The notes under the pieces: generated by a model
Database searches by the model: none
Seen by the model: the letters and a program-made list of their open reading frames with translations, nothing else
What the model was told of the DNA's origin: nothing
Made by a program: the position numbers and the translations under genes
NCBI GenBank assembly: GCA_937967425.1
Contig: CALBST010000066.1
Coordinates: 1 to 5,646 of the forward strand
From: an uncultured Caulobacteraceae bacterium
GTDB lineage: Bacteria; Pseudomonadota; Alphaproteobacteria; Caulobacterales; TH1-2
DNA length: 5,646 bases
Direction: 5' to 3'
Part shown: in pieces, positions 1 to 5,451 of the stretch
Layout of the letters: every line of letters starts with the position of its first letter
Position numbering within the stretch: position 1 is the first letter of the stretch

Positions 1-62
1 AGCGCCACGTCGATCTTTCCGATTTCACCGAAACCGCGCGGCGCAGCTGGAACACCAGCTAG
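1..62 (+). CDS. Probable C-terminal end of a convergent plus-strand gene (partial, unidentified)
   Basis: In the frame starting at base 3 the plus strand reads RHVDLSDFTETARRSWNTS and ends with TAG at 60-62. The tail is mixed and hydrophilic with mostly G/C third codon positions, as expected of real coding sequence here. The gene would converge on the minus-strand sulfotransferase, their stop codons overlapping in CTAG. The body lies outside the window, so no family can be named. A competing reading is a minus-strand gene starting at a GTG just after the sulfotransferase stop; it has no visible ribosome binding site, so I prefer the plus-strand tail, without certainty. Confidence 0.35.
   Translation, partial: RHVDLSDFTETARRSWNTS
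45..60. repeat. Perfect 6-bp inverted repeat (hairpin) at the convergent gene junction
   Basis: AGCTGG (45-50) and CCAGCT (55-60) are perfect reverse complements separated by the 4-base loop AACA. The hairpin abuts the minus-strand stop (59-61) and the putative plus-strand stop (60-62). It could act as a short bidirectional terminator or 3'-end stabiliser, but neither strand has a T tract after it, so it is not a canonical intrinsic terminator. Confidence 0.5.
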
Positions 63-1633
63 CGCGCATATCCCAATCGCTCGGCCCAATCGCTCAGCCC
101 CGGCAAAGCCGGCGCGAGCTCGCGCGCGTAGTTTTTCCAGCGCGCCACCGAGCGCGTGTAGATCGGTTGAACCACCTGCCGCGCCGAAGGCGTATTGATC
201 TTGCGCTTCAACGCTGTTTCAGCCGGCGACAACATCGCCTCCTCGAACGCCAAGCCGAGAAAAGTTGTCACCGATCGCGCCACGCGCTCAAGATCAGCAA
301 CAACATCCTCATAGCGCACCTCAAGCATGCTCAATCCGAGACGCTCACGGCAGAGCAAGCCGAGGCTCATCACTTTATCGTAGTAAGCGGCCGCCGAGTT
401 CAGATCCAGAAACTGAACCATCGCCGCGTTCATGCCGAATCGCTGCTGAAAACACGAAAGCACCACATCGCGCGGATCGCGCAACGCAAACAGGATCTTC
501 GCGCTCGGAAACACCCGGCGAATAAGCGGTAAGAAAATGATGTTCAGCGGCAGCTTGTCGACGACAATCCGTTTGCCGACCTTCGTCTCCATATTCACCC
601 GCCGCCAATACTCAACTCGTATCGCTTCAATGTCGGCGTCACTCAGGGCAGAAAGCTTGTTTGGATCGGATGCAACTTCACCCGCCGCGAGCGCAAGATG
701 CTCTCGCTCCTCAATGCAAACGAGCCCCGAATGCGCCGACAGCACCTGCTCCAAAAGCGTCGTCCCCGATCGCGGAAATCCCACCAGAAACACCGGAGCA
801 AGTTCGTCACTTGAAGGCCACGCCGAAAATTCCGCTACCTCTACAAACGCCCTCATCCGCTCAACACCCTGCGGATGATACGGCAAATGCGCCTCGCCGA
901 GATGGGCGCCGTGAATCGAAAGCAACAGCCGGTTCGCCGCCGCAAATGCCGCAAACGCTTCTGAGAAATCGTTCGTCCGATCCCGCGCCTCGCCAATCAC
1001 GCCCCAAGCCAACGCCTGATTCGTTATCGAACGCGAAGACCGGGCAACAGGAGAAGCAAACGACTCCGCAGCCGTAAAATCCTTCTCTCGCAACGCGATC
1101 GCCGCGAGCGTCAACGCCGCCACTTCGTTGCCGCGATCCAGCGCAAGCGCCCGACTTGCATGCTCCCGCGCGCGTTCGAGCTGATGCACCTTCTCCAACG
1201 CTTCAGCCAAGCCAGCATGCGCGATCGCATCGTTCGCATTGAGCGCCAACGCCTTTTCGCAAGCCCTGATCGTCGCCGCCGAGTCTCCCGCGTTGGCTTC
1301 GACAATCGCCAGATTGCGCCAAGCATCCGGCAATCCGCGTTCACCCGCTCGCGTGAAGGCCCGACGCGCTCCAGACGCATCGCCGCTTCGGCGAAGTGCA
1401 ATGCCGAGCGCGTTCAGGATATGCGGCTGCCCGGGCGCTGCCTTGTCGGCGCGTCGCAAATGAGCGAGCGCGGTCGCGACATCGTTCTGCTCCAGCGCGA
1501 CGATACCGAGCACTTGATTAGCGCCCGCATCGCTCGGTCGATCGCGCAGGACTTTCTCGGCGACCAGTCTAGCTGCGGCAAAGTCGCGCCGTGCCAATGC
1601 GGCTTGCGCCGCTTGCAGCAGCGCAGCGCTCAT
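59..1633 (-). CDS. TPR-repeat sulfotransferase (524 aa), third gene of the operon
   Basis: Predicted cytoplasmic PAPS-dependent sulfotransferase with an N-terminal TPR superhelix. Residues about 4-236 form six or seven degenerate 34-residue TPR units (for example ALNANDAIAHAGLAEALEKV, 130-149). The sulfotransferase domain spans about 279-524. Its 5'-phosphosulfate loop is VFLVGFPRSGTTLLEQVLSA (281-300), followed by acidic residues at 308-311. DKLPLN (359-364) is the conserved D-K-x-P block. LRDPRDVVLSCF (384-395) is the 3'-phosphate-binding segment, with R385 and S393 the likely contacts. A C-terminal TPSARQVVQPI (481-491) and a W/Y-rich helix match the usual end of TPR-sulfotransferases. No signal peptide or membrane helix is seen. 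The ATG overlaps the previous gene's TGA by 4 bp and no Shine-Dalgarno sequence is visible, so translation is probably coupled. The acceptor is unknown; a peptide or protein hydroxyl is plausible from TPR architecture and distant likeness to tyrosylprotein sulfotransferases. Confidence 0.93.
   Translation of the reverse strand: MSAALLQAAQAALARRDFAAARLVAEKVLRDRPSDAGANQVLGIVALEQNDVATALAHLRRADKAAPGQPHILNALGIALRRSGDASGARRAFTRAGERGLPDAWRNLAIVEANAGDSAATIRACEKALALNANDAIAHAGLAEALEKVHQLERAREHASRALALDRGNEVAALTLAAIALREKDFTAAESFASPVARSSRSITNQALAWGVIGEARDRTNDFSEAFAAFAAANRLLLSIHGAHLGEAHLPYHPQGVERMRAFVEVAEFSAWPSSDELAPVFLVGFPRSGTTLLEQVLSAHSGLVCIEEREHLALAAGEVASDPNKLSALSDADIEAIRVEYWRRVNMETKVGKRIVVDKLPLNIIFLPLIRRVFPSAKILFALRDPRDVVLSCFQQRFGMNAAMVQFLDLNSAAAYYDKVMSLGLLCRERLGLSMLEVRYEDVVADLERVARSVTTFLGLAFEEAMLSPAETALKRKINTPSARQVVQPIYTRSVARWKNYARELAPALPGLSDWAERLGYAR
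1630..1633 (-). promoter_or_regulatory. ATGA stop/start overlap, likely translational coupling
   Basis: On the minus strand the TGA of the 653-aa gene (1632-1630) and the ATG of the 524-aa gene (1633-1631) share the sequence ATGA. The bases just upstream of the ATG (GCGTATCCAAA) hold no purine-rich Shine-Dalgarno sequence, so termination-reinitiation by the same ribosome is the likely mode of translation. Confidence 0.8.
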
Positions 1634-3591
1634 TTTGGATACGCGTCAAGCACTGGGCCTAGCGCGGCCCTGAGAGGAGCAAGATAGGTCTCGAATGAGC
1701 GCCAGTCGTCGAGCCCTTTTGCACTGATCGGCTGTCGTACTTGCTCGGCGCTGGCTGTATGAACGGCGCGCCTGGTTTCGTGCGGGCGTAAGCACTGCTC
1801 CTCGAACGGCAAGCCGCAATGATCGAGCAGCGCGCGAATGTGCGACCCGGGATCGGTAACGAGCTGTTCATGGATCACGCGATACACCCGTCCCGGCAAG
1901 ACTACATCATAGTGCGCCATCAGGCGCACATAGTCCGCGTAATAGCGGCCGATATCGGTTAGGTCGTAGCTGAAATCCTGCCCCTGCGCGAAGTGTTGCT
2001 TGAAACAGGACCAGCCGCACGCCATCGGATGACGCCGGGCGTCGACAATCTTGGCGTTGGGCAGCGCCAACTGGATCAGCGCTATGTGGGTCCAGTTGTT
2101 CGGCATCTTGTCGATGAAGAACGATTTACCCGGTGTACGGCGGCGCTTGGTCGTGCGCAGATAGGTTGCGCCCATCTCGCGCAGAAGGTTGGCGTCAGCG
2201 GCCTGCAGTCCGTCGAGATAGCCCGAGGCGAAACCGCGCACGACATTGGTCAAGTCAGGCAGCTCCATCGTGCCTTCGACTTGCGAATGTGACGCCAAAA
2301 TCTGCTCTATCAGCGTGGAGCCGGAGCGCGGCAGGCCGATGATGAAAATCGGATCGGGCGCGGGATCTCCTGCACCGGCGCGCTCGGCGAAGAACTCAGC
2401 ATTGTGGCGCGCAATGCAATCATCAACAAAAGACGTCAGCGCATTCGCATCGTGAGGATAAGTTCGCGCTCGTATGGAAGCGCCTTCTGCGTAGGCGCTG
2501 AATGCGGCGGCGTTGTCGCCCCGTTGCTCAAGCGCCTTACCCAACGCGTAAAGCATCGCCACGCGATCGTCGGCCTTCAAGTCCCGTCGCGTCAGCTGCG
2601 TCCGCAACGCCCCCACTTCCGCGTCACTAAGCTTCACGGTTTTGAGATTGGCGAGCCCCCAATAGGCATCGCCCATATGCGGCGCGAGCGCCAAGCTCCG
2701 GCGATAGGCCTCGACACTTGCTTCGCTATCACCCAGTGTTTTCTGAATATGGCCGACGGTCGTCCAGGTCGCCGCGCGGTTGGGATCTTCGCGGAGCAAC
2801 TGCAGATAGATCTGCAGCGCCTCCTCGTACTCACCAGCACTGTTCAGCACCGCCGCCAGCGCCCGGCGCGCACCAGGACTGCGAGGGTCGATCCGCACGA
2901 GTTCGCGTGCTTCCTGCAACGCCTCATCAATTCTTCCCAACCCCATTAGCATCGATGCAAGATCATGGCGTGTTGGTTGGAACAGTGGCGCCAGTTCAAG
3001 CACGCGGCGCATCGTGCGCTCCGCATCCTTCACGTTGCCGCCCCTCGCGTACGCTTCGGCGAGCATACGAAGTGCAACGATGTCCGTCGGATGCTGGCGG
3101 AGAAAGTCTTGCAGCAAAGCCACAGCGCCATCGACATCATTGGCGCGCAGCTTCGCGCCCGCAGGGGCAAGGCCAGGGTCCATGTTCGCGGAGAAGCCAT
3201 GACGCAGATAGGCGCGCTGCGCGCCCGGTGCATCACCGGCCAAGCTCAGCTGATCGGCGAGGTCGCGCCAGATCGTTGGGTGCGCCGGGTTGAGAGCTAC
3301 GGCGACGCCAAACGCAACCGAGGCCGGCAGTGGCGCGTTGTCGGCCGCAAGGATCAAACCCAGCTGCCGCTGCGCACCGAAATGACCGGGATTAGCTGCG
3401 GCAAGCGGTGTGATGATCGCGCGCGCGGCCTTGATGTCTCCGCTCAGACGTAGCGCTTCACTCAGCAGCAAACTTGCATCCAGATTACTGGGCTGACTTT
3501 GCAAGGCCGTTCGCAGCAAAGCCGCAGCGCGTGCGGGATTACCACGCATGATCTGCATCGCTTCGTTCAACATGACCGGAACCGCGCTCAT
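1630..3591 (-). CDS. TPR-repeat sulfotransferase (653 aa), second gene of the operon
   Basis: Same architecture as the gene downstream but with a longer TPR array. Residues about 3-304 form roughly nine TPR units. The unit around 136-168 is the most degenerate; those at 169-304 are the clearest, with repeat ends such as LELAP, VRIDP and LALAP. A further helical segment follows to about 385. The sulfotransferase domain (about 413-653) carries the phosphosulfate loop IFIIGLPRSGSTLIEQILAS (415-434), E443 shortly after it, IDKMPNNW (493-500) and the 3'-phosphate-binding segment VDARRHPMACGWSCF (516-530). This last has R-R-H-P where many relatives have R-D-P. ASAEQVRQPI (613-622) ends the domain typically. 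No signal peptide or membrane helix is apparent. The ATG lies 6 bp after the stop of the hydroxylase-sulfotransferase gene with only a poor Shine-Dalgarno candidate, and the stop overlaps the next start as ATGA. The substrate is unknown; PAPS-dependent sulfonation is well supported by motifs. Confidence 0.93.
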   Translation of the reverse strand: MSAVPVMLNEAMQIMRGNPARAAALLRTALQSQPSNLDASLLLSEALRLSGDIKAARAIITPLAAANPGHFGAQRQLGLILAADNAPLPASVAFGVAVALNPAHPTIWRDLADQLSLAGDAPGAQRAYLRHGFSANMDPGLAPAGAKLRANDVDGAVALLQDFLRQHPTDIVALRMLAEAYARGGNVKDAERTMRRVLELAPLFQPTRHDLASMLMGLGRIDEALQEARELVRIDPRSPGARRALAAVLNSAGEYEEALQIYLQLLREDPNRAATWTTVGHIQKTLGDSEASVEAYRRSLALAPHMGDAYWGLANLKTVKLSDAEVGALRTQLTRRDLKADDRVAMLYALGKALEQRGDNAAAFSAYAEGASIRARTYPHDANALTSFVDDCIARHNAEFFAERAGAGDPAPDPIFIIGLPRSGSTLIEQILASHSQVEGTMELPDLTNVVRGFASGYLDGLQAADANLLREMGATYLRTTKRRRTPGKSFFIDKMPNNWTHIALIQLALPNAKIVDARRHPMACGWSCFKQHFAQGQDFSYDLTDIGRYYADYVRLMAHYDVVLPGRVYRVIHEQLVTDPGSHIRALLDHCGLPFEEQCLRPHETRRAVHTASAEQVRQPISAKGLDDWRSFETYLAPLRAALGPVLDAYPK

Positions 3592-3597
3592 GCTGAA

Positions 3598-5451
3598 TCA
3601 GTGCTCAGCGGCTTTCGCCGCGCGCTCCAGCATGGCCGAAATTGAAGGCAGCACCGACTCGACTTCCTTCTGTCGTCCGCGCCACTTGTCGGCACTCGGC
3701 TTCGAGACGGTGTGACGCGCCAGCGGCAATTCCCGTCCGAGCTTACGATCCCATCCCCACTCGACCGCCTTGCAGATGCGCACAACCTCAGCATTCGGAT
3801 CAGCGATAAGCGCATCGTAGCGCGCCGTGCTCCACCGATTGCCTGGCAATGCATCAAGACTATCGAGCAAAACCTGCATCGCCGACTCCCATTGCTTGGC
3901 GACGATCTGTTCAAGCGGCAAATGCCCGAGATCCCGCCAACCCGGCGTCAACAACAGCGACCATGGACGCTCGCCCGTCCAGCCCGGCAGTTCGGGATAG
4001 GTGACGAAGCGCCTAGATTCCCAGGCCTCCATCATCGAGGAGAGCACCTCGCGTGGATCGCGATAGAGATAAACGAAGCGCGCCTCCGGAAAGACCTTCG
4101 CCAGAAACGGAATCCGGAGCGCGTTCTTCGGCGTCTTTTCTAGCATGCGGATGCGACCTGGCGGCGGCGGCGCGCCGTCCCGATTGCGCAGCAACTGATC
4201 AAAGCGATCGCGCAACGTGACCACGATCTCGGGACGCGCATGGGTTTCGTCGAGGCAGTTCGAATCGAAGTTGGCGGCGAAGATACCGAGCCCTTTAACT
4301 CCTTCAATTACGCCATGGCTTTCACCACCCACTGTGTAGACGTTCGGCGCCTGAGCCAGTGTTTCAAACAACAAAGACGAGCCAGAGCGCGGCGGGTTGA
4401 CGATGAAGATCGGACGATCAAAGCGCGCATCGACCGCACCAGTCATTATGTTCGGGGCGCTTACGGGCGCCGCCGCAATGTCGGCGCGCGTTTCACCCGA
4501 CATATCATCGCGTCTGTCGCCAAGCGCTGGCGTCACGACGAGCGCCATTAGAGTGGCGTAGAGGTCGGAGCCGTTGCGCAGCTTTACTTCGCTGGCTCGC
4601 GCGGCGCGGATCTGGCCCGCGAATTCGTCCAGCGCCTTGCGATAACGCTGCCAGCCCGCCTTGGACTCGCCGTAGGTCGACCAAAGCGCCCGCCAAACAT
4701 GCGTGAAGTGCGAGCAGATGTGCGCCACCTGCGGGAATTGCGGGTGCTGCTGCGCCGCTTCGCGAAAGAGGAAGTCGACATGGCCCTGAATTTCCCACGG
4801 TGTCATCACCGCGGGCATGTTCTGGCTTTCGTACTCGAGCTGATCGAGCGTCGCGCCCGTTGGCTGGAACGGACGCGGCGTCCAACCTGGCGTTTCACGC
4901 TCGGGCAGACGGCCTTGCGCGGCTAGCCTGTAGAAGCCCTCCCCGCCAACTGTGTCGGCGACGAGGTGAATGCGCTTCTGCGTCGCGTCGTTGATGACGC
5001 GATGGCGCGAGAACGTATCGAAAATCCAGCATTCACCAGCCGCCATGTTCACGGTGAGGCCGCCACAGTGAAAACTGACCGTCGGCTGTGTCACGATCGG
5101 AACGTGGATTCGCATGCGATCGCGCCAGTAGTAGTGGATGTCGACGTGCGGAGTGACCTCAGCACCGCCGGAGAGGCGCATCAGCCGCGTACGGCCGAGC
5201 GAGGCGCCGAAGCTCGCGAGCACCTCGACCAAGTAAGGGCACTCTTTGAGATACTTCGTCGGCGCCATCTGGCCGGCGAAGGACTCATTCGCCTCTTCGC
5301 CATTGACGGAGATCAGCGGCAGGAAATCGTTGCCCTCGAAACGCTGCGGGTGTGGTAGCCAGCACTCCTCACCAAATTTGGTAACTTCCTTGGCGAGGAG
5401 CTCGGCGTCATACTTGACCGGCAATTGAATAAATCTGGCCTGCAGTCTCAT
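3598..5451 (-). CDS. Fusion of Asp/Asn beta-hydroxylase-type dioxygenase and sulfotransferase (617 aa), first gene of the operon
   Basis: Predicted cytoplasmic two-domain enzyme. Residues about 10-170 resemble the aspartyl/asparaginyl beta-hydroxylase family of iron(II)/2-oxoglutarate oxygenases. TPHVDIHYYW (100-109) gives the iron ligands H102 and D104, and DTFSRHRVINDA (145-156) gives the distal ligand H150. R160 in KRIHLVADT is the expected 2-oxoglutarate-binding arginine, and RMRIHVPI (112-119) is the conserved central strand. Residues 190-310 are helical, rich in W, H and F, and unassigned. An Ala/Pro-rich linker (about 311-343) leads to a sulfotransferase domain: phosphosulfate loop PPRSGSSLLFETLA (353-366), EKTPKN (438-443), 3'-phosphate segment YLYRDPREVLSSMMEAW (461-477), and TVSKPSADKWR (581-591). 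I chose the ATG at 5451 because GGA lies 6 bases upstream and the oxygenase homology starts there. The longer reading to 5550 begins with TTG and adds a low-complexity Cys/Arg/Gly extension. The substrate is not identifiable; hydroxylation followed by sulfonation is inference. Confidence 0.9.
   Translation of the reverse strand: MRLQARFIQLPVKYDAELLAKEVTKFGEECWLPHPQRFEGNDFLPLISVNGEEANESFAGQMAPTKYLKECPYLVEVLASFGASLGRTRLMRLSGGAEVTPHVDIHYYWRDRMRIHVPIVTQPTVSFHCGGLTVNMAAGECWIFDTFSRHRVINDATQKRIHLVADTVGGEGFYRLAAQGRLPERETPGWTPRPFQPTGATLDQLEYESQNMPAVMTPWEIQGHVDFLFREAAQQHPQFPQVAHICSHFTHVWRALWSTYGESKAGWQRYRKALDEFAGQIRAARASEVKLRNGSDLYATLMALVVTPALGDRRDDMSGETRADIAAAPVSAPNIMTGAVDARFDRPIFIVNPPRSGSSLLFETLAQAPNVYTVGGESHGVIEGVKGLGIFAANFDSNCLDETHARPEIVVTLRDRFDQLLRNRDGAPPPPGRIRMLEKTPKNALRIPFLAKVFPEARFVYLYRDPREVLSSMMEAWESRRFVTYPELPGWTGERPWSLLLTPGWRDLGHLPLEQIVAKQWESAMQVLLDSLDALPGNRWSTARYDALIADPNAEVVRICKAVEWGWDRKLGRELPLARHTVSKPSADKWRGRQKEVESVLPSISAMLERAAKAAEH

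Follow-up and report, generated by a model that had tools for sequence, protein, structure and literature searches.

What does a single protein carrying both an oxygenase and a sulfotransferase act upon, and do its two halves act on the same molecule? The question is raised by a 5,646-nucleotide contig of an uncultured Caulobacteraceae bacterium (CALBST010000066.1 of assembly GCA_937967425.1; the whole stretch is hereafter called the window). Its three genes all lie on the minus strand, and the first (3598..5451) encodes a 617-aa fusion of a 2-oxoglutarate (2OG)/Fe(II) oxygenase and a 3'-phosphoadenosine 5'-phosphosulfate (PAPS) sulfotransferase. We consider it an even bet (a probability of roughly 0.5) that this fusion is a bifunctional cytoplasmic enzyme that hydroxylates and sulfates one substrate, most likely an exported outer-membrane protein, with sister modifiers that carry tetratricopeptide repeats (TPRs).

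An initial annotation of the locus had proposed a complete HxD...H/R oxygenase domain and, after a linker, a sulfotransferase with both PAPS-binding motifs, in one uninterrupted frame, and all of this was borne out by open reading frame, Pfam and conservation analyses. The strand, which it had left unstated, is the minus strand, with the ATG at 5451 and the stop codon ending at 3598; the plus-strand reading of 3598-5451 is interrupted by stops. A near-invariant M1 and a conserved N-terminus among 97 aligned sequences (window included) support the start codon. The oxygenase domain (residues 1-170; 4942..5451), delimited by Pfam, alignment, conservation, an AlphaFold2 model and fold comparison, matches PF05118 (Asp_Arg_Hydrox) over residues 65-167 (E 1.4e-16, 61.2 bits against a gathering cut-off of 22.6). 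Its H102-x-D104, H150 and R160 align with the His, Asp, His and Arg of L-proline cis-4-hydroxylase, and we take H...H...R to be the iron and 2OG ligands of PF05118. The sulfotransferase domain (residues 344-617; 3601..4422), supported by Pfam, conservation, alignment and fold comparison, matches PF13469 (Sulfotransfer_3) over residues 347-568 (E 1.4e-24) and also PF00685 (E 2.1e-5), both over the curated cut-offs. P354-R355-S356-G357-S358, K439, R464 and S472 correspond to the PRSGT, Lys, Arg and Ser of protein-tyrosine sulfotransferase 1 (TPST1), PRSGS and R464...S472 presumably being the 5'-phosphosulfate-binding and 3'-phosphate-binding motifs of PAPS sulfotransferases. Between the two domains lie a helical region identified from predicted secondary structure (residues 171-311; 4519..4941) and a linker whose length varies among relatives (residues 312-343; 4423..4518). 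The helical region belongs with the oxygenase, since most of the standalone relatives listed (~315-345 aa) cover nearly the whole of the 320-residue N-terminal-half query. The catalytic residues of both domains, E377 included, are invariant in the 97 aligned sequences. Eleven catalytic positions are likewise kept in all 79 fusions from genome loci (numbered L001 onwards; genes called by a codon-usage caller, with open reading frames <60 aa outside the calls; L003, truncated, and L072, with no fusion called, were left out), and only S358 varies (78 Ser, one Thr). Scores against two further families were below the cut-offs: 16.7 bits for the TIGR04531 nonproteinogenic amino acid hydroxylases (NCBIfam cut-off 300) and 17.1 bits for the NoeE nodulation sulfotransferase (cut-off 500). 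This conservation supports two complete active sites within one chain, both of which would be expected to be active.

The fusion is not peculiar to this contig. Among 7998 scored candidates, 3578 matched it at E <= 1e-3; the 120 of these that were listed cover 79-100% of the query, and every one is annotated with both Pfam domains, which argues that the fusion is neither a chance nor an assembly join. Among the matches listed, the closest relative (P0001) is 95% identical, and a protein from a Hyphomonadaceae metagenome-assembled genome (P0002) is 85% identical. GTDB representative genomes yielded 275 stretches encoding a relative, the best 80 of which include Hyphomonadaceae, Caulobacteraceae, Rhodanobacter, Dyella, Dokdonella, Rudaea, Arenimonas and Pseudoxanthomonas. 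Full-length relatives are numerous in Alpha- and Gammaproteobacteria, and this taxonomic survey found a distribution that is patchy: with the N-terminal half as query (E <= 1e-40), fusions and standalone halves together occurred in 8/61 genomes of one order, 11/150 of another and 22/97 of one family. The architecture is already visible in databases as a Pfam combination, and a search of the open-access literature (titles and abstract openings, with subscription papers largely outside it) found no description of the fusion or of the linkage between TPR-sulfotransferases (TPR-STs) and TonB-dependent receptors (TBDRs) described below. Variants of the architecture were also seen. One copy is split into two frames of 72 and 543 aa (L068:7070-8923), and three fusions of ~1000 aa (L071:10001-13030, L215:8679-11855 and L216:7522-10533) carry a third, C-terminal domain of no known function, DUF4915/TIGR03032, which is joined in L214:8300-10636 to a hydroxylase half without a sulfotransferase.

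Whether the two activities belong together can be judged from relatives that carry one half. Shorter relatives made up 1751 of 4980 candidates for one half and 1897 of 2857 for the other, some of them contig-end fragments or partial fusions. In three genome samples we defined standalone N-terminal halves as open frames <450 aa, larger frames not being counted; a candidate in G302 proved to be a fusion truncated where its contig ends (L227) and was dropped. A sulfotransferase gene was present in the ~18-kb locus of 11 of the 12 remaining halves, against ~4% per locus expected from sulfotransferase density. The two halves form a split pair in L225, where the frames overlap in TGATG, and in L220, where they lie 15 nt apart; a TPR-ST occurs near the standalone half in L209, L210 (almost 5 kb off), L219, L221, L222, L223 and L224; and a full fusion lies directly behind it in L228 and L229. 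The L225 pair sits between a TetR-like gene (assigned by eye) and a ferritin-like gene, where relatives carry fused copies, so the split may have arisen by recent fission, or may reflect a frameshift or an error of assembly. The L220 halves, at 37% and 47% identity, are more divergent, and the space between the two genes is a true intergenic gap. Split pairs were absent from the first 61 genomes of the order Xanthomonadales and were found in later samples. Catalytic residues are kept in all 12 standalone halves, in the two split sulfotransferase partners and in a third standalone sulfotransferase (L212). Across 77 fusions, moreover, the distances of the N- and C-terminal halves are correlated (r 0.75; 0/999 permutations as high), a value to which shared ancestry contributes. 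A fusion of unrelated activities, whether accidental or serving co-expression alone, would be compatible with the orphan hydroxylase half in L226 and with the many standalone sulfotransferases of the same family, but the sulfotransferases in 11 of 12 loci and the retention of both sets of catalytic residues in 79 fusions make this most improbable. The gene pairs and the co-variation of the halves support a single pathway served by both domains, and the strongest evidence for one shared substrate is that the two activities recur together, whether fused, split into a pair or encoded by neighbouring genes.

The initial annotation had gone further and proposed a hydroxylate-then-sulfonate enzyme of the Asp/Asn hydroxylase type. 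Its placing of both activities in one pathway agrees with the split pairs, the neighbours and the co-variation, whereas the placing of the sulfate on the new hydroxyl did not gain the same support. The family assignment to PF05118 stood; 'Asp/Asn', however, is the label of a Pfam name, and in sequence comparison the oxygenase matches free-proline hydroxylases better (E 6.7e-4) than it does human AspH (E 0.14). In its strictest form the proposal would have the oxygenase make a new alcohol, such as beta-hydroxy-Asp/Asn or hydroxyproline, and the sulfotransferase cap exactly that oxygen. PF05118-kind enzymes generally make side-chain alcohols. Passages of PMC6817910 describe AspH, an enzyme of this kind, as doing so, and the fusion, the split pairs and the co-variation of the halves would all fit such a tandem. 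Yet the AlphaFold2 model (mean pLDDT, the predicted local distance difference test, 90.9) shows no rigid arrangement of the two domains: pTM, the predicted template modelling score, is 0.56, and pLDDT falls below 50 at residues 327-338 of a floppy linker, so that the idea of active sites facing each other received no support. In L209 and L222-L224, standalone hydroxylase halves also have TPR-STs, a different sulfotransferase subgroup, as neighbours, which means that hydroxylation and sulfation may target separate residues of a single client; the TPST-like fold allows Tyr as acceptor. We therefore regard the strict tandem as possible but doubtful; the sulfate may end up either on the hydroxyl just formed or on a different residue, Tyr for instance.

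Evidence on the nature of the substrate, unused by the initial annotation, comes from the operon partners. The fusion gene appears to be the first of an operon with two TPR-STs, both identified by open reading frame and Pfam, one of 653 aa (1630..3591, minus strand) that begins 6 nt past the fusion stop and one of 524 aa (59..1633, minus strand) that overlaps the 653-aa gene by 4 nt; it is this close spacing that implies an operon. A search for a sigma-70-like promoter gave no match anywhere in the window, a result of little weight. Elsewhere, a TPR-ST lies immediately beside the fusion in 19 of 79 loci and a TBDR in 11 (~1.5 expected); in 18 loci a TBDR lies next to either the fusion itself or its contiguous sulfotransferase/hydroxylase block. 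L011, L015 and L032 share one cluster of a TBDR, two TPR-STs, the fusion, three opposed TPR-STs and a TPR-PF05118 hydroxylase (the Pfam assignment of this type of hydroxylase was checked in L018), while the order TBDR, TPR-ST, hydroxylase half recurs in L209, L222, L223 and L224. In seven genomes, 20 of 44 TPR-ST-like genes (at least 100 bits and a frame >400 aa, TPRs not confirmed one by one) fell within 5 kb of a TBDR plug domain, against 4.1 expected (binomial p ~5e-10, without correction for kinship or for matches sharing one cluster), compared with 0/12 weaker or shorter sulfotransferase matches. This count used 64 of 79 sulfotransferase rows, nine of G012 (no plug list) and six weak or fragment rows being omitted. 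TPR-ST-like genes in these genomes were often near TBDR genes of many subfamilies, whether or not a fusion was present.

Three features lead us to favour a protein exported to the outer membrane as the substrate: the presence of TPR partners, a fold like that of the TPSTs and, for part of the family, linkage to TBDRs. PAPS and 2OG are located in the cytoplasm. The N-terminal half would hydroxylate a residue of the substrate, using 2OG, O2 and Fe(II), and the C-terminal half would use PAPS to sulfate a hydroxyl on that substrate, in the cytoplasm and before export. The substrate would be a protein bound for the outer membrane, in some relatives perhaps the TBDR encoded next door, and the neighbouring TPR-STs, with the TPR-PF05118 hydroxylases of some relatives, would be sister modifiers that grip the client in a TPR superhelix. 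The enzymatic activities, the protein nature of the substrate and the identity of the client are what we infer here.

Several observations weigh against this reading. In 61 of 79 loci the fusion and its block lack an adjoining TBDR, and in 51 there is neither a TBDR block nor a TPR-ST neighbour, some loci being cut by contig ends; many Rhodanobacteraceae copies are among those with neither neighbour. The window contains no TBDR, and its close relatives L001 and L002 have TPR-STs but no TBDR in ~20 kb. In the seven genomes a TBDR plug was within 5 kb of only two of eight fusions, and the loci are interrelated, so that the neighbour tests overstate independence. The fusion itself gave no TPR match at E <= 0.1 across its 617 aa, and the nearest solved relatives of its oxygenase act on small molecules. 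Finally, a comparison of 18 sulfotransferase-adjacent with 42 control TBDRs (20 of 80 stretches, missed by a home-made profile, were left out; controls were hand-picked and mostly large frames) revealed no convincing common target site, and the adjacent receptors are dispersed over many subfamilies, with 12 label changes on the TBDR tree, where 500 shuffles averaged 15.6 and reached 11 at the lowest. Of the gapped patterns, Y-x3-S-x3-N scored best, occurring in 12/18 adjacent and 3/42 control receptors (p 4e-6; corrected p 0.01 for the 2,511 patterns put to the test, a set selected for frequency in the adjacent receptors, and 0.67 over all 163,275 seen). It was also present in 9 of 18 fusion-adjacent TBDRs (p 4e-4 against controls), although these belong mostly to two families that were both in the first set, and its positions are scattered along the barrel; we treat it as a lead rather than a site.

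The small-molecule relatives bring in another explanation, in which the fusion tailors a natural product, that is, a hydroxylated and sulfated amino acid, a ribosomally synthesized and post-translationally modified peptide (RiPP) such as a lasso peptide, or a siderophore, and any linked TBDR is its importer. Among solved oxygenase structures the closest are those acting on free L-proline, the cis-4- and 3-hydroxylases, together with a nucleoside-antibiotic hydroxylase, and the CurM sulfotransferase is among the relatives of the C-terminal domain. For Erythrobacteraceae relatives, Table 2 of PMC10040529 gives a lasso peptide B2 protein, two sulfotransferases, an aspartyl beta-hydroxylase, PqqD and an asparagine synthase-like protein under nearly consecutive numbers (1738-1748), physical adjacency not being stated in the passages at hand. 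This numbering next to lasso-peptide genes would be consistent with a hydroxylated, sulfated lasso peptide, and suggests that the two activities, as separate genes, may serve peptides in other bacteria. Biarylitide RiPP clusters with sulfotransferases and a predicted Asp/Asn hydroxylase are likewise mentioned in passages of PMC13417212. Against this, PF13471 (the lasso B2 protease) exceeded its cut-off in 20 of 60 fusion- or half-carrying genomes and never in a fusion or half locus, as judged by contig and position; other biosynthetic genes were not systematically searched, and precursor peptides of <60 aa fall outside the gene calls. The other two genes of the window, moreover, are TPR-STs, and in passages of PMC6817910 the TPR domain of AspH helps to bind a protein substrate. 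Tailoring of a natural product is accordingly a tentative alternative to the exported protein that we prefer as substrate.

Other genes recur around the fusion and its halves. A solo hydroxylase-like gene of ~217 aa lies on the opposite strand in 11 of 79 loci (L010, L012, L013, L014, L019, L031, L034, L042, L043, L066 and L078; PF05118 confirmed for the L012 copy). L219:4432-13349 combines a hydroxylase half with two TPR-STs, two TPR-PF05118 proteins (home-made profile), a TPR-2OG-FeII_Oxy_5 protein and a solo PF05118 protein, with a TBDR upstream, and so forms an array of modifiers. In Rhodanobacteraceae the fusion is often downstream of a putative thiC (by eye; 13 loci) and/or beside a ferritin-like gene (14 loci), as in L016, L024, L035, L039 and L074 (ferritin-like Pfam checked in L024). 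Choice-of-anchor Q proteins, several with beta-helix repeats, are encoded adjacent or close to the fusion or the hydroxylase half (L012:12567-14411, L071:7318-9858, L216:1077-6374, L214:11469-13943 and L217:10530-14372) and could be a second client class; the six genomes searched had 5-24 matches to such domains each. UvrB, seen near the fusion in L006 and L004, was rejected as a partner (L006 was scanned; L004 is the same gene cluster).

If both steps hit one substrate, a single chain would create a hydroxyl and sulfate it, giving access to sulfated hydroxy-amino acids; should TBDRs be the clients, bacteria would possess dedicated machinery for sulfating outer-membrane receptors. A more speculative extension, to which we give rather low odds, is a protein-modification system that writes sulfated hydroxy-residues, and perhaps sulfotyrosine as well, on TBDRs and other surface proteins before export and so tunes binding at the cell surface. 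That the oxygenase-sulfotransferase, its sister TPR-STs and the TPR-hydroxylases make up such a previously undescribed system is similarly unlikely on present evidence.

Among known enzymes, L-proline cis-4-hydroxylase (4p7w) and proline 3-hydroxylase (1e5r) are 15-24% identical to the fusion's oxygenase but, by their entry names, act on free amino acids, and they lack a sulfotransferase. Human AspH, according to passages of PMC6817910, joins a TPR domain, which helps to bind the protein substrate and is needed for its hydroxylation, to an Asp/Asn beta-hydroxylase whose iron is held by only two His. The fusion has neither this two-His site nor TPRs on its chain: it keeps the HxD carboxylate (D104, in 79/79 fusions) that the AspH site lacks, and it has an attached sulfotransferase. 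The fold of that sulfotransferase is nearest to the protein-tyrosine sulfotransferases; TPST1/2 (17-19% identity in fold alignments) are without an oxygenase, and as regards a Tyr acceptor in protein the likeness is one of fold only. Another of the nearest known systems is RaxST of Xanthomonas, a bacterial sulfotransferase for Tyr sulfation of the secreted peptide RaxX (PMC6637879, PMC4216712). By description it resembles the fusion, which would likewise act on an exported product; RaxST, however, is encoded in raxX-raxSTAB, whereas the fusion is found instead with TPR-STs or a TBDR.
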